The translations under genes were made by a program, and so were the position numbers. This document shows positions 849 to 28,000 of a stretch of 34,347 nt of DNA, piece after piece. The notes beneath the pieces are model-generated. The model saw only the letters and a list, made by a program, of their open reading frames with translations. It was not told where the DNA came from and searched no databases. The stretch is from a virus. How positions within the stretch are numbered: the first letter of the stretch is position 1; each line of letters opens with the position of its first letter. Where the stretch lies: IMG/VR virus record IMGVR_UViG_3300037847_005892, positions 1 to 34,347 of that record; one strand, written 5' to 3'.

Positions 849-1694
849 TTAAATATCAGTTTTTCTAGTTGGACTGTAAGTCTTGCCGTCACCTAAGAAC
901 TGCCAATCTTCATCAAATCCAAAGTTATCACCTGGCATGAGAAGTGCATGATCTTGTGAATCAATTACACCATCATTGTTTTTATCTTCTTTAGCAGTTG
1001 GTGTAACTGTATAACGCATTTCACGCTTAGCAGTTGCTCTATCGGTATTTGCATACATATCAACCTGAACCTTACGGATAAGTCCATCACTACTATCAGC
1101 AATGTGACCAAACAGATATGTTTTTGCTGTAAATCTTAAGGTGTGAATTAATGCTCTTCTTGTATCAAAATTTCCTTCATAATCATCCTGGAAACTTACA
1201 GAATCTAGAATAATGGGAATATCTCTTTTCTCACCAATTGATTCAACTAAGTCAATTGTCAAATTAAAATGTGGTTGAAAGTATGGAAGAATCTGCTCTA
1301 AAATCTGTAATGAATCATCATTCAGTTTTGAAAGAACATTTAATTCAAAACCAATATTATAAGGAACAGGCATGAAAACCTTTTTAACCTTATCTCCATT
1401 ATCACATGTTTTGAATGTTTGAACCAAACTAGATTTTCTAGTCGAATCGTAATCAATAGAAGTCATTTCAAATGACATTCTAGGCATGGTCATTTGAACT
1501 GCTTTGTTCAAATCTGCTTGTTGAGTTATTCTTGCAAGAAACTTTTGACTGGGACCGTATGCTAGAGGAACTTTTATTTGACTCTCAGCATTACCATTTT
1601 GATCAGAATGGCGAACATGAACGTCATTGAACAGTGTTCCAAACGCTATAATCGTCTTTCTAATTATTTCGTGGTAATAATAATTTCCTAACAT
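849..1694 (-). CDS. 15: Tail sheath stabiliser / tail completion protein (T4 gp15-like)
   Basis: 281 aa, close to T4 gp15 (272 aa). gp15 forms the hexameric tail terminator that caps the sheath and tube and meets the neck. The N-terminus MLGNYYYHEIIRKTIIAFGT and the segment MPVPYNIGFELNVLSKLNDD (about residues 108-127) are typical of T4-like gp15. A beta-rich body runs to about residue 230. The start ATG at 1694 overlaps the gp14 stop (TAATG), which fixes the start and suggests coupling. An unusual extra near the C-terminus is a full 12-residue calcium-loop pattern, D237-x-N-x-D-G-x-I-D-x-x-D248, annotated separately. The tail after it ends FGFDEDWQFLGDGKTYSPTR. Confidence 0.92.
   Translation of the reverse strand: MLGNYYYHEIIRKTIIAFGTLFNDVHVRHSDQNGNAESQIKVPLAYGPSQKFLARITQQADLNKAVQMTMPRMSFEMTSIDYDSTRKSSLVQTFKTCDNGDKVKKVFMPVPYNIGFELNVLSKLNDDSLQILEQILPYFQPHFNLTIDLVESIGEKRDIPIILDSVSFQDDYEGNFDTRRALIHTLRFTAKTYLFGHIADSSDGLIRKVQVDMYANTDRATAKREMRYTVTPTAKEDKNNDGVIDSQDHALLMPGDNFGFDEDWQFLGDGKTYSPTRKTDI
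951..986 (-). other. Dockerin/EF-hand-type calcium loop within gp15
   Basis: Residues 237-248 of gp15 read DKNNDGVIDSQD. This matches the 12-residue consensus with D at 1, N at 3, D at 5, G at 6, I at 8, D at 9 and D at 12. Asp rather than Glu at position 12 is the dockerin style. Only one loop is visible and no paired loop follows. Calcium binding is inferred from the pattern alone. Confidence 0.7.
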
Positions 1695-3751
1695 TAAAAT
1701 GTCCCAAATGGATTGGTTTCAGTGAAATCTAAGAGGTTATCTCCAAGAGTTTCAAACTCATCGTTCTCGCTATATTTATCATAAGTATCAAGTGGGTTAT
1801 AAATTTGGACTGGATATGATGCTCCAGAATCTCTGCCAATAATTTCTTCACCCTCAAAGAATACAGAACCCGTAGTTGTTCCAATACCAACATTGGCAAC
1901 TTTTAGGCGGAATAAATCTGCATCCCACTCTTTAACTCTTGCTTCAATACCAGACCTAGAACCATAAACAACTTCATTAAATATGTAATTTCCAGATGAT
2001 TTAATTGTTTCTGGATCTGCAATAGTAACCGTTGGATTTGAACTATATCCTTTACCAGCATTTTTGATAAAGATGGATTTAACAATAACATTATTTCCAT
2101 CTTTACCAAGAGAAGCAATGCCAACAGCGGCGGCAGTACTTGGATCCTTGAATTGGGGATCATTAGATACTGTAACTACTGGTGCATTAGCATGTGGAGA
2201 TTTGGTATATCCACTACCAGGATTTGTTAATGTAATACCAGTGATAGTACCACTATTGCTTAAGACTGCTGTTCCTGTTGCCGTCGTTCCAACAACTGTT
2301 TCAATTGTTTCTGGAGTTAATCTGAAACCAGATCCACTCATACTACCAGAAATATTTACTGCATTAAAACTTGTACCTGTTTGATAATCATATCCACCAT
2401 AAAGTTGTGTAAATCCGGTAATTTCTCCATATTGATTTACGGAATCAATACGGGCTCTTGCCTCAGTTCCAGCAAATCCAACCCTATTGAATGTAACTAC
2501 ATCACCAACCTGATAATTTGAACCATGACTTCCTGCAAATCCTCCTACTCCACTACTATTAAGATTTCCGTTTGGATCTTGCGTGTAGACATCGCCTGTT
2601 TTGATACCAGCACTATTCAATCTAAAGGAACTGATTGATCCAGATCTATTTGGTGGTGTTACTGTTACCGTTGGTGTTGAAACATATGCTTCACCAGCAC
2701 CAGTCATAGTAAATGATGTAATAGTTCCGCTAACACCTACTGTTGCAGTTGCTGTTGCTCCTACATCAGGTCTAGGAATTGTAACTACCGGTGGAGTTGC
2801 ATATCCAGTACCACCATCAGTAACATTAAATCTAATAACACCTGCACCTACTGTTACAAGTTGTGCAGTTGCTGCAGCACCAACTCCTCCACCACCAGAA
2901 ATAGTAATTTTAGGCGGAGATGTATAACCAGAACCTGCCTGTGTCAAGAGGATTTCCTTAAGGGATGTAACACCACCCTTTGTGGTAAGAATACCTACAG
3001 CATATGCATTATCACCCTCTTGTCCAGTGGGAGATGGGTCAATTGTAATATTTGGTGCAGAGGTATATCCAGAACCATCATTATTCAAGAAAACTTGTCT
3101 AACATATCCACTGGCAGAAGTTCCCTGAATCTGTGCAATTGCAGTTGCAGTTCTACCAACACCAATCAAATTCAACGTAGTAATATAACCTTCATCTTGA
3201 ACTTGAGAATCAATCATCTCAATAGAGGTATCAATTACCTCATCTTCGTACTCGAAGAGTTCACACTTAAGTTGATAAACATAATTTTTTCCTAACTGGT
3301 AGAAAGGATCTTCATGCTCAACAAACTTAACTTCAAATAATCTTTGACCTAGTGGGAAATATATTAAATCGCCTTCTCTTGGTCTTGTAGATAAGATAAT
3401 CTCTCCTTCTCCAGTCCCATCATCAAGACCTGCCATAAATGGAGCGATGAACTCTTCAAATCTTTCCTTTGATATTGTAAGAATAAGTTCATCTCTTACA
3501 CTTACACCAAACTTCGTAAGAACATCTCCAGCACCAGAGTATCCATCAAAATTATTGACGTATGCTTCAATAGAATAGTTGTCATCAAACTTGGAAGTTT
3601 GAACTTCTTCTATTATACTTTTTTTATTAACGTATTTTCTGGGAATATATGTTACTTCTACACCATGAAATTGCAGATGCTCATTCACAATATCTTGAAT
3701 GAGTCTCTGCTCAGAAGCAGTCCCTTGTAAGAAAAAAGGATTAAGTGCCAT
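1694..3751 (-). CDS. 14: Neck protein (T4 gp14-like) with large internal repeat insertion
   Basis: 685 aa against 256 aa for T4 gp14. gp14 forms, with gp13, the neck ring that closes the filled head and receives the tail. Residues 1-185 look like ordinary gp14: MALNPFFLQGTASEQRLIQD at the start, then a passage with KFGVSVRDELILTISKERF and a REGDLIYFP turn. Residues 590-685 resume with a passage ending LLDFTETNPFGTF. Between them (about 190-590) lies a Gly/Thr/Ser/Val-rich beta region with six G-x-G-Y units, described separately. The reading frame is continuous, so this is an expansion rather than a fusion of two genes. Start overlaps the gp13 stop (TAATG); stop overlaps the gp15 start (TAATG). 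Assignment rests on the two ends and on order between gp13 and gp15. Confidence 0.88.
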   Translation of the reverse strand: MALNPFFLQGTASEQRLIQDIVNEHLQFHGVEVTYIPRKYVNKKSIIEEVQTSKFDDNYSIEAYVNNFDGYSGAGDVLTKFGVSVRDELILTISKERFEEFIAPFMAGLDDGTGEGEIILSTRPREGDLIYFPLGQRLFEVKFVEHEDPFYQLGKNYVYQLKCELFEYEDEVIDTSIEMIDSQVQDEGYITTLNLIGVGRTATAIAQIQGTSASGYVRQVFLNNDGSGYTSAPNITIDPSPTGQEGDNAYAVGILTTKGGVTSLKEILLTQAGSGYTSPPKITISGGGGVGAAATAQLVTVGAGVIRFNVTDGGTGYATPPVVTIPRPDVGATATATVGVSGTITSFTMTGAGEAYVSTPTVTVTPPNRSGSISSFRLNSAGIKTGDVYTQDPNGNLNSSGVGGFAGSHGSNYQVGDVVTFNRVGFAGTEARARIDSVNQYGEITGFTQLYGGYDYQTGTSFNAVNISGSMSGSGFRLTPETIETVVGTTATGTAVLSNSGTITGITLTNPGSGYTKSPHANAPVVTVSNDPQFKDPSTAAAVGIASLGKDGNNVIVKSIFIKNAGKGYSSNPTVTIADPETIKSSGNYIFNEVVYGSRSGIEARVKEWDADLFRLKVANVGIGTTTGSVFFEGEEIIGRDSGASYPVQIYNPLDTYDKYSENDEFETLGDNLLDFTETNPFGTF
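2021..3079 (-). repeat. Six-unit G-x-G-Y repeat array inside gp14
   Basis: Six related units begin near residues 225, 271, 312, 351, 512 and 564 of gp14: DGSGYTSAPNITI, QAGSGYTSPPKITI, DGGTGYATPPVVTI, GAGEAYVSTPTVTV, a GSGYTKSP unit with a short insert before PVVTV, and NAGKGYSSNPTVTI. The first four are 38-46 residues apart; a different Gly-rich segment (about 370-500) separates them from the last two. Likeness is visible in the DNA as well, with recurring runs near GTATATCCAG on the plus strand. This fits small beta-strand modules; no function is proven. Confidence 0.85.
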
Positions 3752-4581
3752 TATCCAATAAAGTCGAGAGGTGGTAATTCATACTCAGACATCATTCTTC
3801 CTTTGATATCTGCAATTTCAGATTCTGCTTGTTGCAGAATTTCTCCTCCATTTAGTTCGATTCCACCAGGAAGTTTGACTCCACGGAATTTACTTAAGTT
3901 TCTTCCCCACTGTCTCTTGATAAGTGCAGTAAGATATTGCTTCATCCAACTATCATTGTAAATTTGTACAAATGATTCTGGATCAAGTGCTCTATAGCAC
4001 TCAATGATGATAAATTCGTCTTTTGGTTGAGAACCCCAATCTATATCGAGATATAATCTATCTTGTCTCTTATTAAATCTTATCTGTTTATCAGTTGTCA
4101 ATAAGAAGTCAATGTCCTCAAGATAACTCTTGGTCATTGCATACTGAAGGAGTTCAACTGAGTTGAAGTAGTAAAGGTCGTTCAAAAACAGTTGATACTT
4201 GATACTAAACATTCCACCAGAAATGGAACTAGTATCAAATTTAAAAATCTTTTCGATTCCAATTACAGAATCGGGAACTTGAATGTAGTTGGAAGTTTCG
4301 TAAAAGTTGTAAGTTCTATTGGAAGTATCGGTAGCAGTTGTGTTTACAATGCCTGTTCCAGTAGTTCCTTGTGCCTTTCCTCTATCTACATCATCCTGTG
4401 TAATCTTATACTTAAGATACATCTTTTCAACACCGTCATAGTGACGCTCGTTGAAATATTGAATGGCATCATCAACTAAATCATCAATTTGATCATCATC
4501 CACGTTGATTTCCAACACTGGAGCACCAAGTTGACGCAAACAGTAATCTATAAGTCCTTGCCTAGTTGATGGTTTTGCCAT
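3751..4581 (-). CDS. 13: Neck protein (T4 gp13-like)
   Basis: 276 aa (T4 gp13 is 309 aa). With gp14 it forms the neck that seals the portal after packaging and allows tail joining. The first 60 residues are strongly gp13-like: LIDYCLRQLGAPVLEINVDD, then DDLVDDAIQYFNERHYDG and YLKYKIT. The middle has a short low-complexity Gly/Thr loop (about 73-90), and residues 100-200 contain an Asp/Tyr-rich stretch. The tail SEIADIKGRMMSEYELPPLD is also typical. It begins 1 nt after the 61-aa gene and its stop overlaps the gp14 start (TAATG). Confidence 0.92.
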   Translation of the reverse strand: MAKPSTRQGLIDYCLRQLGAPVLEINVDDDQIDDLVDDAIQYFNERHYDGVEKMYLKYKITQDDVDRGKAQGTTGTGIVNTTATDTSNRTYNFYETSNYIQVPDSVIGIEKIFKFDTSSISGGMFSIKYQLFLNDLYYFNSVELLQYAMTKSYLEDIDFLLTTDKQIRFNKRQDRLYLDIDWGSQPKDEFIIIECYRALDPESFVQIYNDSWMKQYLTALIKRQWGRNLSKFRGVKLPGGIELNGGEILQQAESEIADIKGRMMSEYELPPLDFIG

Positions 4582-4582
4582 A

Positions 4583-4768
4583 TTAACCTTCTAATTGTGC
4601 CTTGAGGTCTGCATTTTCTTCTAGCAGAGCATCCATTTGTTCCTTGAAATCCTGAGTCAAGGTTGCTAACTTTGCCTCAAGAAGAACGTTTTGATTTGAT
4701 ACCGTTGCTAGTTTAGAATTGTATATTTTAATGAGAACATTAACATCCACTTCACTTTGATTTTCCAT
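4583..4768 (-). CDS. Small coiled-coil protein, 61 aa
   Basis: Most of its length looks like one amphipathic helix or coiled coil, with regularly spaced Leu/Ile/Val (ASKL-type and LLEAKLATLTQDF segments, ending ALLEENADLKAQLEG). It is acidic, with no cysteine and no membrane segment. GAGGT overlapping the stop of the upstream gene serves as ribosome binding site 7 nt before the ATG. I recall similar short proteins next to gp13 in cyanophages, but no function is established. Its place between a fibre-like gene and gp13 suggests a minor virion or assembly role (inference). Confidence 0.8.
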   Translation of the reverse strand: MENQSEVDVNVLIKIYNSKLATVSNQNVLLEAKLATLTQDFKEQMDALLEENADLKAQLEG

Positions 4769-4776
4769 TAATTACC

Positions 4777-6402
4777 TCAGAAAGTACCCCCGTCAAGTGT
4801 CGAAGTCCAGTGGGGCTTATTAGTATATATTACGCTAACAGAACTGGGAACTGAACCAAGATTAGCGATTGCACCGTTTTGACCTTCTCTTCTCAAATTG
4901 TTGGAAGTATTAAATGTACCTTCAACACCAACTAAGTTAACAGTGCTGCTATTAGTAACTCCAGATTCAACAATACCATATGCACCTGTGCTATCTTGTC
5001 TAACAATATCGCCAGTTGCAGCGGTAATATTTGCACCAAGAGTTAAAGTATTCTTTGTGATAGCAGTCAGAACTTGCTTAGAAGTAATAACTGGAGCAGC
5101 AGGTGCGTTTGTAGATCTTTGAAGACCTGTGTCATCGAAGAATACAACACCACCAGTTGCAAAGTCACCAGATTGATAATAGATACCTTTGATATCTAAG
5201 AATCCTTTTGTTCCAGTGACAACACTGTTAGCAATAGCAGCATCAGGAACATAAGTCCATCTTCTGCTATCATCAGCATGAGTTCCATGGTTATCAGCAT
5301 CTGCTGCGCTGTCGGCAATGGAACTATCATCCATACCAAAGAAACCAGTCTTATTATTAGCGGTTCCAGAACTGGTATTGAATGCGAAAGAAATACCTCT
5401 GTCGGTATTGCTATCGTATCCGTGAGTGATTGTTACTTGTGCTGTGGTAGAAATACCAGCAGTAGTGGCGTTATTAAACGTAATTGTTTTAGCGCCAGTA
5501 TTGTAAGAACTGATTACGGTTGCAGCAGCAATACCAGTTCCAGCAAGAGAGTCGCCAGTGTTGATACCAACAACAGAATCCAGAGTCAGTGTTGTAGCAC
5601 CACTGCTGGCATCTGCCATAACAGTTCTGGTGCTAGTTGTATCACCAATATGGAAAATTGGATCATTAAGAGTCTTGGATGTGGAATTAACTGTAGTGGT
5701 TGTTCCATCAACCTGAAGACTACCCTTGATGATTACAGTACCTTCATTACTTAAACCATCGGGATATGGATCCAGATACAGAATATCTGTTCCACCAGAT
5801 TCTGTAGAAATAATATTATCTTCAATTTTTATATTACCGAATCTTGATTGTGCGGTAACAGCAATGTCAGTATTCCAGGTCCATCCAGCACCAGTTACCT
5901 GGACACGGTCAGTACCATTCTCATCATATTCAATCTTTGCATCTTTATCATCACCTAAAGATACGAAAGTATCATCAGGAATATGAACTTCACCAGAACC
6001 ATGAGGATCTAATTTGATGTCCCCATCAGTATCGGTTGATGAAATTACATTTCCATCAATTCTAAGATTATCTACGTTCCACTGGTCTACCTTGAGCGAT
6101 TCTGCTCCGCCCAAACCAGAGTTAGTTGCTGGTGCCATGATGGCAACAACACCTCTATCTGAATTTCTAGTATTATGAGACGCTGCTGGAATATTTCCAG
6201 GAGTGTGCTCCATCATGGAGGTGTAGTAATGACCACCAACGGGGTGAGTGTTGGTTCCATCATCACCAAGGAAAATTCTATCCTTGTATTGGTTTACTCC
6301 TCCGAAGCTACCAATACCAGTTACATAACCGAATTCGCCCCATGCTAAGGTTGATGGTTTACTAGTACCTGAGGATCTTTTGATCCTGATAATACTTGCC
6401 AT
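4777..6402 (-). CDS. Virion structural, tail-fibre-like protein, 541 aa
   Basis: The N-terminus ASIIRIKRSSGTSKPSTLAW followed by GEFGY resembles the N-terminal segment of phage receptor-binding proteins of the Mtd type, where a short beta unit has an R-R-G-T/GE-L-GY pattern. Residues about 113-146 and 189-225 form two related units: LRIDGNVISSTDTDGDIKLD and IKIEDNIISTESGGTDILYL, each followed by a D-P. This is typical of beta-solenoid fibre proteins. The rest is Thr/Ser/Gly/Ala-rich, with VMADASSGATTLTLDSVVGI and similar strands. The C-terminus ends LDGGTF. It lies between gp8/DUF4815 and gp13, where T4 has gp9-gp12 and the whisker gene, so an adhesin or baseplate-fibre role is plausible. The exact function is inference. 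It starts 1 nt after the stop of the 75-aa gene. Confidence 0.72.
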   Translation of the reverse strand: MASIIRIKRSSGTSKPSTLAWGEFGYVTGIGSFGGVNQYKDRIFLGDDGTNTHPVGGHYYTSMMEHTPGNIPAASHNTRNSDRGVVAIMAPATNSGLGGAESLKVDQWNVDNLRIDGNVISSTDTDGDIKLDPHGSGEVHIPDDTFVSLGDDKDAKIEYDENGTDRVQVTGAGWTWNTDIAVTAQSRFGNIKIEDNIISTESGGTDILYLDPYPDGLSNEGTVIIKGSLQVDGTTTTVNSTSKTLNDPIFHIGDTTSTRTVMADASSGATTLTLDSVVGINTGDSLAGTGIAAATVISSYNTGAKTITFNNATTAGISTTAQVTITHGYDSNTDRGISFAFNTSSGTANNKTGFFGMDDSSIADSAADADNHGTHADDSRRWTYVPDAAIANSVVTGTKGFLDIKGIYYQSGDFATGGVVFFDDTGLQRSTNAPAAPVITSKQVLTAITKNTLTLGANITAATGDIVRQDSTGAYGIVESGVTNSSTVNLVGVEGTFNTSNNLRREGQNGAIANLGSVPSSVSVIYTNKPHWTSTLDGGTF

Positions 6403-16080: not shown

Positions 16081-19000
16081 TTATGAATAGAAAGGTAAAT
16101 CACTATCAACTACGCGACTTGGATCACTTTGTGGTTTGATGGCGCGAACCGCTCCAGTCTTACCTTGTCCAAAGTTACCCCTTCTCTGAATAGTTGGGAA
16201 AGTTGATAAACCAGCATCAACAGTCAACCCAGTAACACCGATTGAAATTGGGTTAGCTCTCTCATCGAAGTTGTATATTCTTCCCCAAGAGATAGTTCCA
16301 AGAGAAGTTGTAAATCCGATTTGAGTATCGTTAAATCCACCAGTGGAACCAATACCAGTTAAATTGGAAGCACCGTGAACATTACAAATAATTTCACCAT
16401 TTGCAGCAACCTGGAATCCAGTTGTTCTAGAGTCAACAATGTAGATATTATCTAAGAATGTTGTTCCAACACCAACAACTGAATCATTGCTATCATATAC
16501 AGAAACAACACCATGACCAACACCAGTTCCGTAAATCATAACTGGATAACCAGGTTGAAGTGCGTTGGTGTCTGAAGCATTTTGTGCCTCACCATTTATA
16601 CCATAATCAGTAAGTGCATTGAAGAAGAACTGAATCGCCTTGTGTCCAGTAGAACCTATAGTTTCTTTTATTCCAGTAATAATTCCACTGAATCCCTGAA
16701 CGTTAGAAACTTCTTTAATATTTTCATATTGAACGGCAGGAACTGGAGCAATAACACTTGGAACTACTGCTCTGGTTGTAATTCCAGTAGTAGTAAAGTT
16801 AGAATTAATTCCAACTGCACCACTGTTGATACCAATATTACCAGTTGAAATGGTAACAAAGTCAGTATATCCAAAACCAGGATTGGTGATGGATACCGAA
16901 GAAACTTGTCCATTTTGAATGGATGCTGTTGCAGTTGCAGTTGTTCCAATACCAACACCAACTTTAAGTGGTGCAGAGAACTTCAAGTCAATTTGATTTC
17001 CAGTGTATCCTGCACCTGGATTTGCAATTTGAACGGCACTAATTGTTCCACCAGAACCAACAACTGCAGTAAATCCAGCACCAGTAACTTCGCCATGTGG
17101 CATTACGAAGGCATCAAAATCAAATGAGTTTACATTCAAATCATAAATGACTTCATCGTAATCGAAGAATTGTGCATTATCAACAAATATTTGTGTAGAT
17201 TCTGGAGTGATGTCACCAATGACCTTTGCGGTTGGGAAGATCTTAGGTTCAATGGAATCTCTTGTCTTATAAACAACATCTCCCTTGATGAACTTGTCTC
17301 TCTTCTGCTTTGCCCATTCAAATGGTTTGAAGATGTCCTGACTGATTCCTGGTCCAGTGTAAACAGAGGTTTCCAGAATGTCGGAACCAGTGATTTCAGC
17401 AATTGTTCTCTTAGTAAGTTGAGATGCTGTTCCTGGAACTGATGGATTTGCTCTTACAAATACATCATCACCAACCTTCAAGGTTTCTGTTACAGTAGTG
17501 ATTCCAACATCGACACCCTTCTGACCAACGTAGAAGAAGATATCAACATCATCATTTACCCTTGGTGCCTCAGTAAAGATAACTGAAGTTCCTCCAGTAA
17601 ACTGATATGCATAACCTGGGGTTTGAAGAACACCATTGATGAATATCAGAAGAACAGAATCAAGATTAATTGCTGAAGAAAGATTATTAGTAAGGTCAAT
17701 CTCAAAACTTAGCAGTTCTCCATTATAGAAGAGTGGGAATCTCTTTCTATTTCCATCCTGATAACCCTTTACATTATCAATATAATCCATCTGTCCAAAG
17801 GACCAAGCAGAGTAGAAATCGTTGAAAGTTTGAGTGATTTCTACTTTGAAGTCTTCAATTGGTTGTGTATAGTCCTTAGCAGTAACTAATCCAACAACCT
17901 TAACAACATCACCAGGTTTGAATCCATAACCATTTCTAGCAATCTTGAAGTCAGAAACATTGAACTGAGCACCAGGTGCTGGAGTTCTGGTTGGGATTGT
18001 TGATTGACCAACTGCGAAGGTTACAATACCAGCAAGTGTATGAATTGCAGATGCAACGTTTGCACATTGTGCTGGAGTTGTAGTGGAGGACAATCTGTAC
18101 TCTACTGCGTTGGTTATTGCAGATACGAATGTATGTGTATATTGCTGACCTGAAGGGGATGCACCAACGTTAACTCTGAAAGTATTTGTAGTTACGTTGT
18201 CAATGGTAAGGAAATTGCCGCTTGCTGGGTCAGTTGAACGTGGATATGTGTGATTAGTTAAGTTACCATCTTTAGAGCAAGTGAAGGTAAAGGAATTATC
18301 CTTAAATCTTACTTGATCGCCAATTTGGAATCCGTGGTTAGCGATTGTAACTACGAAGTTACCATTCGATGCAGTATAAGTTGCATTGGTTGGTGTATAC
18401 TCAACAATGTCATCCGTAATTGTTCTATCAAATACTTGAGCAAGAGTTGAATATCCACCAACAGTAATGGATTCATTACGCATTGCTTGGATTGCCATGT
18501 CTCTTGCCTGTTCAAAGGCATAGATGGTTTCTGCTTCTTCGCCTGCTACATGTGCTCCAGTAATATAAAGATTAGCGGCATCAACTGTAAGGTCATTTCC
18601 ACCAAACTTGGTGTTATATGCAATAGATTCAAGAACATCAACAATATCATCCTTACAATCTCTTCCACTTGTTCCTGCGGGAGGTGTATATGATGGGAAT
18701 TGTGCCAACATTCTGCCGTAAGCAATGTCAGCAATAAATGCCGCATTGTCTTCAATCAGATTTGCTGCATCAAAGAACCTATCACCAGTTTCTTTCTCAG
18801 TAGTTTGTGCAATAGTAAGATTGAGAAGAAGATTTTTTCCAGTTTCAGTAGTAGAACCAGTTCCAAGGCGAGATACACCAACAACTGGCATATTCTCATA
18901 ATTTGGTTCTGGAATGATAAGTTTTGGATTAACATATCCAGTTCCACCACTTACAAGATTGAATCCAAGAGTTCCGCCTGCACCAACTGTTGCAGTAACG

Positions 19001-22000
19001 TTTGCACCATATCCTGCACCACCACCAGGACCAACATTGACAGTGATTGTGTTAGTGGATACTGAAGTGATTGCAAGGTTTTGACCAGATGCTGGGTCAG
19101 TTGAGCGAGGATAAGATTGATCCGTGAAGAATCCATCATCAGAACACTGGAATACCAGTCCATCATCCTTGATGAGGATGGTGTCACTTGTGGTCAATCC
19201 ATGATTTGGAATTGTAATAACAAGTTTTCCACTGAATGAAGTATAATCTGCTCCTGTTGCAGTAAATGGACCACCAGAACTTGCAGTGATACTACCAATA
19301 CCAGATCTTACAAATCTATGCTCATATGCAATATCTGTAACTCCAATTGATACAGGTCCTCTATATCCAGAACCAATATTCAAACTGAATTGCTCAAAGA
19401 TTTCACCACCACTTACATAGTGATGCTCAAGTGTGCTAGGTCCGATACGAACGTTCAGTGTTTCTGCATCAACAATATTGAAAATATCGTAGGAACGATC
19501 TTTATCTGGATAGGTCTTAGGAGTTGATGGAGCGAGGTCACATGTGAATCCCAATCCTGCAAGGAAAACTCTGTCTCCAGATCTCAAACTATGACGCCCT
19601 TGTGTTGTAACCTCAAGGATTCCAGAGAATCTATCGTACTGTGCTGTAGAAACTGCAACAGGGTTCACATAGGTGTTGATACCAACGATTTCAGTAAGAG
19701 TACCAGAGGAATTCTTCTTAGCGATTGCTTTTGCACCAACAAGAGGTGCATAACCAAGACCTGGTGTAGAACCGAGAGAAACAACCAAACCACCTCTAGG
19801 AATCTGATTTTGGTTGATATCAAATTCAGATTGAATGAATGAACCATCAGTTGAAGTAATTCCTGTGAATACAACACTAGAAATACCAGCATTGGCATCA
19901 TTTTCAAAGAAGTAATTGTTACCAGCGTTATTTTCTGTTGTTGGTGTTTGGAATACCCCGTTAATGAAGAGAATACCATTTCCTTCGTCAATACCTGTAG
20001 TATTAACTCCGAGGATTGTATTGGTGTATGTCTTACCAATTCCAGTGAATTGGTCGGAGATATCATCAAACAGCATGTTGGTGCTGTAATTAGATCTCAA
20101 GAAAGTTCTACCAGAGAACTGTGCTCTTACATAAGGAAGATTTCCTTCATCTCTTCTTGCTCTTGTATTACCTTTTGGTGGATCAACAAAGTGCAGAGTG
20201 TTCTTAACAATATTGATTGAACCTCTGTGAATCTGAACATTAGAACCATCAGTGTGGTCTGTTGCTGCAGTTCCAACAATACCCCTTTGAACAGAAACTG
20301 TTGGATGAGTTGCAGCAGCACCAGCAGCGATAATACCATTGATTGGTCCAAGAATTTGACCATTAGCATTAGTACTGAATCCAACTTCAATGACCTTCAT
20401 GTATTCATCATCAATCTTGAGAATATCTCTTGGTTGAACCGAAGAAATGCCACTAAGGTTGAAAGTTGAGATACCAGCATTGATACCGCCACCATTATTT
20501 TCAAGGTCATGCTTCACAGGTGTGAAGGTGATTGGTTGCTGAACAATACCATCAAGACCGATAACAGTCTTAGTAAGTTTCTTGGTAAACTCTAATTCGT
20601 GAGCATTTCCAAGACCAGCATCTGTAAATGTTACAAAGATACCTGCCCTTGCATACTCTTCCTTGGTTGCAAGTTTAAATGTGTCTGGAGTAAGAGCGAT
20701 TGGGAAAACAATATCAGGAAGTTTTGTGGTAACAATACCTGCATAACTTTCAGTTGCTCCAATACCCATTGCGGTTTGACCAACACTGATAAAGGTTGAT
20801 TTTGGAATGTATGTAAGTTCCTCACCTGTATTGAAGAAGTGATTTGGGAAAGTGAACAATCCAGTTTCATAATCCAGTTTTGTGGTATCGGCAGGATCAA
20901 ATGACTTGTTATAGATTGGGAAGTTATTGTGAGTTATTTCAAAAGCAGTTCTATTTGCTCTGAGACCGTTCAATCCATCAAATGCTGTAAGAAGAAGTCT
21001 CTTATTAATTGGACCATAATTGAGATCCAATGCTTGATTGTCAAAATCAGATACTCTATAGAATACCTCATTCATTGCTTGTGCTTCAACAGTATATCCA
21101 GCATCTGGATAGAAGTTCAAAGTAAATTCTCTACCGTTGACAACTCCACCAAATGTTCCAATACCAACAGAATTATTAGTTACTGAATATGGTCCTGGTG
21201 TTACGGTAACCGACAAGTCCTTATCATTTGCCATGATAACAACTTGGTGCAGAGATGAAGTAGAGCCAGCAGCAACACGAACAATTGAATTTGAAGATGA
21301 AATAGTGTCAATATCAAAGGTTCCAAGAGAAACTGCTGTTGTACCGAATCCAACTGTAGATTCAATTCTTGCACTTCTTTCATCACCAGGTGGTTGATTA
21401 TTGAGAAGGAATCTATAAGTTCCGATTCCTGCAGTTGTTGCACCAAATCCAATAATATTGGAGCGAACATCATATACTGGACCTTCAGAAGTAATTGCAA
21501 CGTTTCTTGCTCTCAAGGAAACAATACCAGCATTAGAATCATATGCAACAGTCAAGATTCCAGTTTGAGTTGCACTATATGCTTGAGTTGTTGTATCAAA
21601 GTAATACTCACTAAGGAAAGTATTAGTTCCATCAAAGTCAATATATGCTTCAATGTAATGATCTGGTTCTGTTTCAAATCTATCAGTAATTTCAACTGAA
21701 GCAAATGCACCATTAAAGTTTGCAGAATCAAAACTTGCAAGGGTTTTAATACTGGTAGAAATTCCAGGGGCAACACCAATACTATTGATACCAGAAACAA
21801 AAGAACCTGTTAAATCAACCTGACCAACTGTTTGAGTACCAATTCCTGTTTCGGATGCGGGAAGATCTTGATAGAGATAGGTCTTTCTCAGAAGTTTGAT
21901 ATCATGGTCTCTTTCATATGGATCGGTTGGTTCAAAGATAAGAGTCTTTCTTCCAACACTATCAATATCTGCACGGAAATCACCAAGTTTTTCATTTGTG

Positions 22001-25000
22001 AAAGTAGAATACTTTTCAAAGAGGAACGTATTAGTATCACTAGATTGAAGAATAACTTCTGATACTTGCATATCAGATGTATCTGGATCAACAATTTGAA
22101 TAGTGTATCTGATGTGATTATCTTGTGCCTGAACTTCTTCGAGTTCACTAAAGACATCTTGGAAACCTCTGGAAGAGAACTTATCAGAGATATCATCATG
22201 AATTAGAACTCTATTAGTTCTACACTCCGTATAGTCTGTAAGTTTTCTGTTTTCAAGTTGCAGAGAATTAGATTGTAAGAAAGTACTAACTCCACTTGGT
22301 CTTGGGTCATTATCCAATCCAAAGTCGAAGTTGTTGATTACATCAACTCTCTTCTCACCGACAACATCAAGGATTACAATACCAATAGTGGAAATTGTAT
22401 CTCCAGCACCAACCTGAGCAGCAGAAGAAATGCCAACGTCGGCAAAGTTCTTCATACCTGCAGGGTGAACAATACTGTTTACAGGTGAAGAGAACTCTTG
22501 CCAAGTTATTGGACTCTTAATAGAATAAGAAAGGTTCTGGTAATAATCATTGTTAGGTATAACCTGATAATCTTGACTAATCTTACCAACATCATCTCTC
22601 CAACCAATATCCTGTTTAGATGCATAATCAATTACAATCTTAGATCTCTTACGATCAACAGATACAACTTCCGCAATCGAACCACTAACTTTACCTCTGA
22701 TTCTGGTTGTTACAATACCAGAATTATTAGTTGCAGATGGAACAAGGTTATATGTTCCTTTGACCTTGATATAATCATCTCTAACAAGAGAAATTCTTAA
22801 ATCAGTTTCTTGCCACAATCCTGTCTTATTTGAATCAACATACAATTCTTCATTGATTTCAAACTTAGATCTTTCTTGAACAATATTCAGAATTGGGAAG
22901 TTCTTCTTATTAACAATTGTTCCATATCCAGATTGATATGTCTTAGCAATACCTGGATTGGTTGTCAGTCCAACACCATCTTCACCAACAAGTTCAAATG
23001 TAAGAATTGCAGGGCTAGTGTTATTGAATTCTTTTACTCTGAAGAATTTGAAGTCATAATCTGCAGAGTTCCATCCAGAACCAACATAACTATCTTCACT
23101 CTTATTGGTAGTTGTTCCAATACCAATTGCACTTAAGTGTGGACCATTTGATGGGATAGAGTGCTCAATGTTTTCAACATAAACATAATCTCCTTGTTCA
23201 AACAATACTTGATTGAATCCTAAGATTGGAGTTGTAAGAACACATGTTGCAATTCCAAAATGACTGGTTGTCATTGAAACAATACCAACACCATTTTGGT
23301 TATCGATTGGAATCAATCTATGTGGCTGAGAATCTAATCCACGGATTGGTGCAATCTGCTCAACTTCAGAAATAGAACCGTTAGGTGCAGATGCAATAAA
23401 TGTCTCTCTATCAATAATTTTCTTGCTTTCATCATTCCAGAGAATGAGTTTTGGTGGTGCAAGATAGTTTTCTCCACCAAATTCAATGTCTACACTAGTA
23501 ACAGTATCAAGATTATCAATCTCAACAACAGGAGGTATAGATGCCTCAGGTCTCAGAGTTTTATCCGAAGAGTAATCATATCCAATATCCTTGAATCTTG
23601 TTTTCTTAATTCTTCCAATAGAAGTTGATATTGCAACCAGGTTAGCATTTCTGCCCTGAGACTTATCTGTTACTGCATCAACAACCTCTTTAAATTTGGG
23701 AAGTTTATCAAAACTAAATCCTTTGGAGAGAACTTCAACATTACCAATAGCACCCAAACCTGATGAAGATTTGGTTCTATACTCTAATTTGTCACATTGA
23801 TCTGAAGTATAGTTGAATACACTGGGCAACTTAGATGGTGAAACAAAGAATTGAGTTGAAGTCTCATCAAAAATCTGATATGTGCCATTATAAGCACTGT
23901 CAACGTAGTTAATTTCACTGAAAGAAGTAACTTCTTTATCTGCTGTACTAATATAACCACCTTTCTCTAAAGCATAATAAAGTTTAGATGGAATATTCTT
24001 AGAATAATTAACTGTCAGAGATGCATTAGATGCTGTTCCAAGACCAATAGTTCCAACACTTTGAACATTGAAATCTCTAGAATCAAAAGAAGAAACATAT
24101 TCATTAAGGAATTCTGGTTCTCTGTAGATTTTTAACTCATATCCATTAAGAGTTGGACTCTGTAAGTTGAACTGAATATCGCTATTTCTAACAACATTAA
24201 TTTGTGGATTAATTAATGCAAATGTATGAGTTGTATCACCAGTTCCAACGATGTTGACTTCTTTTTCAGTTAGTGGGTTGGTATCATAAAGAGTTTCTGC
24301 TAAGCGGAACTCATCTTTACCATCTCTAATTGCATAGTAATTTTCAGAATCTGTCAATCCACCAAATGGTTCGACGCTTGTATAATACAGTTTGTCACCT
24401 GTCTCATACCCATGATTTGCAAGAGTAATGGTGTTTGTAAATGTATTGATTCCTGCAGATGCAATTCCAGTTGGATTTACAAGAATTTTCTTATCAATTT
24501 CATTAAATGCAAGTGTTAACGCTGCAGTTGTTCCAACACCAACAACAGTATTTGGTTGAACCGTCAGTTTAACAGTATCTCCTCTAACAAGACCGTGAGT
24601 TGAACCGCAACTTACAAGGGTCTTGATTCTGGAGATATCGCCAGTAATTTGTTCTTTAAGAGATTCAATCTTATACTCATGACTATCACTTACTCCAGTG
24701 CTGAAGTAAACACCATTACCAGAGGTTGTTAATCCAACCTGAGTAGCAAATCCAATAAAATCTCTACCCTTATCAATTACATAAAGATCTGAGAAATTAG
24801 TGTTTACATCAGGGATGAGAATATTTCCTGCAGTAGTTTGATCAAAACTTATAATCAGTGAATTTAATCCTTGACCACCTGGTTTACTGAATCTAACTTT
24901 CTGACCATTCTTAAATGGATGATTAGGAATGTGAATTGTTTGTGTTGGAATTGAAACTGTGTATGAAGTAACTCCAACATTATATGTTCTTTGAACAGCA

Positions 25001-28000
25001 CCACCTGCAGTAGTTCCCAAACCAACTGCTTCAGATGTGTTCAGATATACAATATCTTGGCGTTCAGAACTAAATTTCTGTGTTCTAACGGGTAACGTAA
25101 CCCTGTCATTTAGTAAATCAATTCTACTGCCAAGAGTATGTGCAACACCAGAAGAACCATGTCTCTTAACTTTGAGAACTCCATTTCTAAAGTTATTGAG
25201 AACGGTCATGTGCTCACCGTTAACTCTAATGCTATTACCAATAGATACGGTGTTCAGTTTGGTTGAAAGGAAAATATCTTCAACAAAACCATTTGATTGT
25301 GCATTATATTGAGTCATGGTTCCAGCAAGAGCAACCGACTCTGTGGTGAATCCAATCTTAACAGAACCTTCTAACGAAGTAATAGAAGTTGAAAGACCTC
25401 CAACAGTAACAACATCATTCAGATTCAAATCAAATCCAGAACGATTATATGCAGAAACTTGGGAACCATTGTCCCAAACCATAACAACATCTTCATACAA
25501 GTCTAATGTTGTATCGATAGATGAAACCTCAGTTCCAACAATCTCAGAAACTTCTGCTCTTAATCCAGCACCTCCCGATCCTTCAAGGTCAAATTCAACT
25601 CTGTCACCAATTTTATATCCAACTCCACCATCATTAATTTTGACCTGATTAACTTCACCTTGAGTTACTGCTAAAACTTCACTTTCCTGTCTGAAGAATT
25701 CATATCCTTCATTGAGGAAATCATAGTCAGCATACTTCTGGTTTACATTATATGGGAATGTGTTTCTAGAAATATTTGCATTATTAAAATCAAATGAATG
25801 ATCTAAGACCAAGTTCTCTGTAATGAGATTTCCTTTATAGTGCTCACCAATAAAATATGGATATGCTGGTTCAAAGTTAGGTGTTGTTTGACTTGTAGTT
25901 ACACCTGCAAAATATGCATATACACCATCTGGGAAATCTGGAGTCTTACAGAATCTACCATTATGCTTATCTAAATCACCAACTCCAGTATATTCAAAAT
26001 CTTCAACAAAGAATCCATCAACAAAGTTTGGTCTATCTTCAATAGTAGATGGTTTTAACTCATAACTAGATTTCATCAATCTAGGAGTTCCTACAGTACT
26101 TGTGCTATCAAATCCATATGGACCATAGATTGGATTTCCATCATACGCCCATCCAATGATTGGTGAGTGTTGTTGACCATTATCATCATATGTGGATGCA
26201 AGATCCTGAGAATATCCGTAGATACCGTAGACCAACTTATCCTTCTTATCATCTTTGGTAAGGCTGGAGAAGATTTTCTTACCTGATCTGCTTCTAGAAT
26301 ATTCCGCAAATCTTTCAGCATCATTGACTTCAAGATTTCTTACGTTTGCTTGGAACTTAGCACCAAACTCTCTTTGTTTGATAAAGATGTTTGTAGAAGA
26401 AGCACTGTATCCAATACCAGGATTGATAACAACAACATCATCAAGTTTACCATCAATAATAACAGGTCTTAAGATTGCACCTGTACCATCACTTCCCAAA
26501 TCTTCAGCAATGAGTGCTGGTGGAGAAACATAGTCTTGTCCTTTATTCAGAACCTGAACATCAGTAATTTTTCCATTAACAATAACTGGAGCAAGTTGTG
26601 CGTTCTTGCCTTCCTTAGTATTGATAAGTGGTCTCTTATGGAGATTCAGAGTTGTGGTTCCATATCCCGTTCCTGGTTCATAGAGATAGGTGTCAACAAT
26701 AGGACCAGCAACAAATGGTGTAAATATAAACTCACCTTCAGCAGTTGAAGCATAAGATACGTTTGCTACAATCTTAATTGGTGGATACTGGAAACAGTGG
26801 TATCCACTATTTGGATTGAGGGTATCTGTTCCAACACCAGTAATATCAACGTGATGATTTCTGAGCAGATTATCCTTTATACTATTACCAATACCAACAT
26901 CAATAACTCTGAAACTATGATCATCTACCTTATCAATAGAATATTGCTTATTAGTATCCAGACCAAATACACTAAGATCATTAGTTGTAGTTAATCCGGC
27001 AAGGGTAGTTACAGAGTAATCAACAATCTCTCCAGTTTTAAATCCATGATTTTTGAAACTGAATGTATTGTATTCTGTAGAAATACCAGATTGTGTAACT
27101 CTAAGTTTTCTATTGCTATATCCAGAACCACCATCAATAACTTTAACTTGACGAAGATTTCCTCTAGAAAGTGTCCTGAACTTATGGATACCACTAGCAT
27201 CTGTTGCGGTAGAAAGACCAATGGTATTAATACCAGGTCTTGTGATATTACCATCCTTATCAGTTAATGGAGCATCTGCTTCAGTTCTGTAAAGTTGAAT
27301 TGATGTACTGTTGATAAATCCAACAACATATCTGTCACCACTTACAAAGTAGTTACTAATTGAATTAGTAGGATCTCCGTAAATACCAATTCCAATTGGT
27401 TCATTACCATTTTGGTTGTATATGATAGTATCACCACTATTCAAGAAGTGTGGTTCTAAGAATGTAATTGTTTCTTGATTAATATCAACACCACCACCTA
27501 AGTTAAGGGGACGACTATCAAACTGAATTTCTCTGAACCTATTACCTACGATTGGTTCGAGTACACATCCATTACCATTACCACCAGTAAGAGTGACAGA
27601 TTTACAATCAACAATATCAAATACTTGTGGGTCAACTAAAACTTCTTTAACACTACCTTCAATAACTGGCTCAACATATGCTTGTTTTGAGACACCTGAG
27701 ACATATGCAGTGTTACCAACACCACTTACAATACTGATTGATGGTGGAAACTGAACATTATAATCTCTACCACCATTGAGAACTTCAAAAGAATCAAGAG
27801 GACCATAATAAATGCTGTCTCTAGAATCTGGTGAAGTAATTTCAACACCATCGATAAGCATACCAACATTACCGATATTTCTCTTATCGGGTTTTTTGTC
27901 GGTTAAAACTTGTCTTAATGGGAACTTTCTGAGGATTTCTCTAGAAGATAAGAGTTTATCTTCATGACGGTCTAATACAAACTCATGAGAACCTGCAACC

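Follow-up and report, generated by a model that had tools for sequence, protein, structure and literature searches.

A repeat array in the neck protein gp14 of cyanophages that behaves as an exchangeable cassette

It is usual to regard neck proteins as conserved genes of the structural core. In a 34,347-nucleotide stretch of viral DNA (the window, meaning the whole stretch analysed), a gene of this kind carries a long internal array of repeats with the motif GxGY. An earlier note on this DNA had proposed a gp14 neck protein whose array projects outward and may replace the T4 whisker protein (wac).

The identification as gp14 with an internal GxGY array was confirmed by domain and family profiles, a repeat HMM and shuffled sequences. 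Residues 3-185 match the Pfam family T4_neck-protein (PF11649, E = 5e-33, over the curated cut-off), the protein matches the profile of PHROG 460, 'head closure Hc2' (E = 2e-134), and the neck domain matches PDB entries 9mkb/9lu4 (E = 1e-26, by phmmer). Its nearest named relatives are P-SSM2 and related entries. The gene order gp13-gp14-gp15 is present, and the locus is arranged as in P-SSM2, with the 541-aa gene, a small gene, gp13, gp14 and gp15 in succession and gp16 further on. The protein is thus identified, by sequence, as the gp14 of a T4-type cyanophage. The features of the locus are the following.

849..1694, minus strand: gp15, tail sheath stabiliser, 281 aa (Pfam PF16724, T4-gp15_tss, E = 2e-89)
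1694..3751, minus strand: gp14 neck protein gene, 685 aa (Pfam PF11649 and PHROG 460)
1697..1894, minus strand: C-terminal tail of gp14, aa 620-685, with the conserved LDFTExNPFG end
1973..3115, minus strand: array of six GxGY repeats (repeat HMM) with one further module, aa 213-593
2039..3118, minus strand: segment exchanged relative to the near-identical contig L015, aa 212-571 (two-rate scan and pS)
2285..2641, minus strand: module A, aa 371-489, between repeats 4 and 5
3194..3751, minus strand: neck domain, aa 1-186, a homologue of the barrel solved for T4 gp14
3751..4581, minus strand: gp13, head-tail adaptor, 276 aa (PHROG 211, E = 4e-48)
4583..4768, minus strand: 61-aa coiled-coil-like protein adjoining gp13 (coiled-coil family matches below cut-off)
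4777..6402, minus strand: 541-aa fibre-like gene at the T4 wac position, the same position as P-SSM2 gene 118

The N-terminus of the 541-aa gene product resembles tail-fibre genes of other marine phages. The 61-aa coiled-coil-like protein is conserved in relatives.

The repeat HMM located six copies in the window gp14 (aa 213-254, 260-300, 302-340, 341-379, 499-542 and 556-593), each of about 40 aa and together spanning about 380 residues; shuffled sequence amounting to 53,412 aa contained no copy. Chance would give 0.35 GxGY motifs, and five are present; the best self-match over 35 residues scores 68, above the highest value from 500 shuffles (54, with a mean of 34). Glycine and proline hardly vary at their positions in the repeats. 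The interval first assigned to the enlargement, 2021-3079 (aa 225-577), runs from the first motif to just past the last. It had been described as about 400 residues of beta repeats; the span and the modelled beta structure bear this out, but residues 380-498 are a separate module and not GxGY repeats (the first residues of module A overlap the HMM-called end of repeat 4). In two AlphaFold runs the repeats were modelled as beta structure with pLDDT mostly 80-95, helices were nearly absent and the array contained no coiled coil; the full-length run modelled the neck domain poorly. The window gp14 has no Pfam Ig-family match, and the array profile matched no PDB sequence. Against PDB folds the array model gave nothing at E <= 0.001, in a search that the chained multi-repeat model may have blunted; the repeat fold has no significant counterpart among solved structures in the PDB searches made. 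Related repeats do occur in other virion proteins. The window also encodes a giant protein of baseplate-wedge type (4678 aa, 16081-30117), with weak copies of the gp14 repeat near aa 4355-4437.

The number of repeats, counted by HMM, ranges from 0 to 7 across gp14s; the window gp14 has six, that of P-SSM2 four and that of ACG-2014d two, and those of T4 and Mosig lack them. We collected 77 distinct gp14-like proteins: four repeats, a length of 460-499 aa and an intact C-terminal tail characterise 46 of them, 18 are longer forms (540-699 aa, six or seven repeats) and 11 are truncated forms with three. Four repeats are thus standard for cyanophage gp14, and only the additional 205 or so residues of the window protein (a repeat, a module and a repeat) are unusual; the suggestion that enlargement by an array is peculiar to this phage fails, as P-SSM2 gp14, at 470 aa, already has the four-repeat form. 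The longest gp14 ORFs seen, in L151-L157, have 945-952 aa and eight or nine GxGY motifs, with module B at aa ~415-420. In Synechococcus phage S-8S53, which also has a long gp14, gp13 (L083, 4872-5990) is 372 aa long with an internal insert of about 100 aa.

Since neither T4 nor the related Pelagibacter phage Mosig has it, the array lies outside the gp14 core fold. It is nevertheless conserved among cyanophages, being kept in most of their gp14s with an open reading frame in all lineages seen, so the earlier note's own ground for refutation, homologous gp14s with the array inside the conserved fold, is half borne out. Both ends of gp14 had been thought preserved. For the N-terminal end this is so; the C-terminal end (LLDFTETNPFGTF in the window) is conserved across the cyanophage family, including the repeat-free Mosig (DDILDFTERNPFG), and is only weakly alignable to T4.

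We then compared near-identical phages. Between the window and contig L015, the 541-aa gene, gp13, gp15 and gp16 are 97-100% identical, and within gp14 the ends are 94-100% identical versus 58-89% for the array, from which 205 codons of the window version are missing in L015. A two-rate scan delimited a segment, aa 212-571, differing at 20.9% versus 1.9% elsewhere. The pS of the array is 0.304, compared with 0.067 for the core, 0.079 for the tail and 0.023 for gp15 (P = 3e-14 by Fisher's exact test). The silent sites show the array of this pair to be an import of a diverged copy, and not the outcome of relaxed selection alone. Other pairs agree: array pS is 0.221 in L007/L009 (core 0, gp13 0.012; here the tail is replaced too), 0.241 in L062/L078 (versus 0-0.07) and 0.282 in L026/L041 (versus 0.05-0.12), and in L002/L003 the arrays are 58-81% identical while the remainder of about 11 kb is 91-100% identical. 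The sole other clear identity dip in the L002/L003 contigs, short and at 85%, lies in the 541-aa gene (L109 near 4651).

Arrays are less than 92% identical in 13 of the 46 pairs, mostly of metagenome contigs, whose cores are at least 97% identical; because the pairs overlap, these represent about six independent groups and not 13 events. The ends of the exchange are not always at the edge of the array, as the segments in L007/L009 and L036/L052 extend into the tail. Exact-pattern scans for further strain-level relatives yielded L001 and the L015 contig alone. The array acts as a cassette that near-identical phages swap. We found no sign of positive selection, array pN/pS being higher than that of the core yet below 1; a published selection signal for gp14 lies within the false-positive rate and is weak by its authors' account (PMC5112629). 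Point hypermutation or a diversity-generating element seems less likely, since silent sites and length change across the whole array, which recombination fits better.

The module between repeats 4 and 5 is itself mobile. Module A is present in the window and L002, where it is 93% identical although the cores are 83% identical, and at lower identity in L004/L005; module B occupies the same site in L003 and L007-L009. A and B are alternative forms at one site. L002 and L003 share 99% identity in the core and 100% in the tail, versus 34% in the module (A versus B), and L003 and L007 show the reverse, with 74% in the core, 45% in the tail and 96% in the module. The modules therefore move horizontally between gp14 lineages, across which they are conserved at 84-98%. 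Neither matched the cultured phage records searched. Of the 16 further loci with module A or B, two are contig-cut ORF ends that retain the gp14 tail; in the other 14 the ORF has a start of the gp14 type.

In one clade the chain itself is interrupted. In L018-L024, L027 and others (a subset of this span was read individually), gp14 ends after repeat 3, at 372-374 aa, and the second half (gp14-C) is a separate ORF of 229-237 aa, with the last repeat and the C-terminal tail, directly before gp15. Between the halves lies a cassette of 5-6 kb. It carries a gene of 243-252 aa whose start is gp9/10-like, then a gene for a subtilase (Peptidase_S8, E = 5e-25) and another encoding 734-1194 aa; seven or more contigs contain both halves, with their genes in the same order. 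In L092-L094, L098, L100, L104, L106, L108 and L113, gp14 is cut inside the array into two ORFs, gp15 follows the second half, and the stretch in between holds a pin-like gene, a large gene and, in most cases, a recognisable subtilase. The large gene encodes 767-1075 aa (L092:4857-8084, L093:4368-6671, L094:4943-7294) and had no Pfam or PHROG match in the two members scanned.

At its start, gp14-C matches the beginning of the baseplate wedge family PHROG 708 (E = 1e-26), and the order pin, subtilase, wedge gene recurs in Synechococcus phage S-H38 beside its gp7-like gene. The end of the first half (gp14-N) aligns with the last ~100 residues of the S-H38 gp7-like protein (E = 2e-5); for the very last peptide this similarity is marginal, 23 of 2000 shuffles being as good, and a search of phage records with that peptide gave no match. 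On the simplest reading, a baseplate block would have recombined into gp14 via shared repeats. We set aside a split intein joining the halves: the new ends measure only ~30 aa, and gp14-C begins like baseplate-type genes. The natural split points to stopper parts that may not need covalent joining.

What, then, is the array? We consider it probable that it is a solvent-exposed modular arm within the C-terminal extension of gp14, exchanged as a cassette. The exposed, modular arm is well supported, if indirectly; it would make variable accessory contacts. In the T4 virion, whose gp14 is known to be a hexamer with stopper loops, the C-terminal arm (aa 178-256) contacts gp15 (PMC12270204), and the insert falls at the corresponding part of the protein. 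By analogy with T4, the array would be exposed between the ring-forming barrel and the tail peptide, which is expected to dock on gp15; if the window gp14 is hexameric too, six beta-rich arms would encircle the joint between head and tail as a kind of built-in collar. Lying outside the channel and the ring contacts, such an arm could be lengthened, swapped or cut. Cyanophages probably swap it through homologous recombination, in many cases with endpoints close to the first and the last repeat. The outward projection originally proposed is likewise consistent with the T4 arm position, the range from 0 to at least 7 repeats, the swaps and the break in the chain. Its role would be in contacts at the virion surface, with the host envelope or folded tail fibres, and not in DNA gating. 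We count against a contact role the failure of a neck fibre from cyanophage A-1(L) to bind the host (PMC10966104), and we found no structure of a cyanophage neck with such an array. Only tentatively do we entertain the stronger version, in which the array is an actively exchanged, adaptive contact surface, hypervariable, recombined near its edges, and independent enough of the ring for gp14 to exist as two proteins with baseplate-type genes between them.

Exposure and exchange might also be expected of a passive spacer, that is, an arm without selected contacts whose unconstrained repeats tolerate any array while shared repeats promote recombination. The pN/pS of the array, above that of the core and below 1 and with positive selection not seen, fits this explanation, and the related repeats of other virion proteins would supply the homology. 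We nevertheless think it rather unlikely, as most cyanophage gp14s keep an open four-repeat array, the glycine and proline positions are so constant, and modules A and B are more similar across lineages than free drift would leave them.

A whisker substitute appears improbable. Under this explanation the array performs the task of T4 fibritin (wac), holding the folded long tail fibres and sensing conditions, and varies to match variable fibres. It would sit at the neck, fibritin likewise has swappable modules (PMC3797505), and P-SSM2, S-8S53, ACG-2014d and S-H38 lack a wac homologue, as do the others tested, Mosig and one 231-kb relative; no wac family was among the profile matches of the window gp14. 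T4 fibritin, however, docks on gp13 domain III and not on gp14 (PMC12270204), the wac position is filled by the fibre-like 541-aa gene and the coiled-coil-like gene, Mosig lacks both wac and the array, and the array model has no coiled coil. Given the docking site, the occupied slot and Mosig, we reject, as stated, the proposal that the array replaces wac.

Nor do we give much credence to a mechanical brace that strengthens the neck. The ring and the tail expected to bind gp15 hold the array at its two ends; in phage 812 loss of neck decoration proteins goes with broken necks (PMC12886913), and the Milano collar links sheath and neck (PMC10491603). A brace should hold its length and continuity, whereas arrays differ greatly in length and in one clade the chain is cut. 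Finally, collapsed or chimeric repeats are a hazard in metagenome contigs, which the window and most of its relatives are, repeats being hard to assemble, but we reject an assembly artefact as very improbable, given an identical 685-aa gp14 in contig L001 (100%), the different gp14 sizes of the cultured phages P-SSM2 (470 aa) and S-8S53 (644 aa), and the recurrence of the split, its gene order unchanged, in seven or more contigs, with all frames open.

The preferred reading, an exposed modular arm, implies that a neck part thought to be fixed is a fast-changing and probably exposed module, as the array swaps and the split in one group indicate. With a near-identical locus around an array that differs in sequence and length, gp14 behaves more like the tip of a tail fibre. 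If this is correct, some of the most abundant ocean viruses have an additional variable virion surface, gp14 is a risky phylogenetic marker, and the question of what the neck touches becomes testable. In pelagimyophages, gp14 marks the end of a hypervariable island for host recognition (PMC7029224). Neither variability within gp14 nor a split gp14 was found in the open-licence literature searched, which is no proof of priority.

Among known systems, T4 gp14 (head closure Hc2; PDB 9MKB, 9LU4-9LU7) resembles the window protein in its position between gp13 and gp15, its neck domain and its C-terminal extension; it has 256 aa and no repeats, whereas the extension of the window gp14 holds an array of about 380 residues that is exchanged between phages. 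The gp14s of P-SSM2 and S-8S53 share family, repeat type and C-terminal end with the window. That of P-SSM2 has four repeats and lacks about 205 residues, including module A; that of S-8S53 is long but of a different repeat make-up. T4 fibritin is also neck-associated and modular, with swappable parts, but is a separate trimeric coiled-coil protein on gp13, whereas the array is predicted to be beta. Its module swapping was ancient and then ceased or became fixed (PMC3797505); gp14 arrays, unlike fibritin modules, differ between near-identical phages. The stopper of Staphylococcus phage 812 has an extra external beta domain lacking in its relatives; it is a single beta-sandwich and no variable array, and the available part of the report does not mention exchange (PMC12886913). 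The array resembles in behaviour the Ig-like surface domains of phages, beta modules apparently shared and shuffled among several virion proteins; it gave no Pfam Ig-family match and no significant PDB fold match, the latter in the search that its chained model may have blunted.
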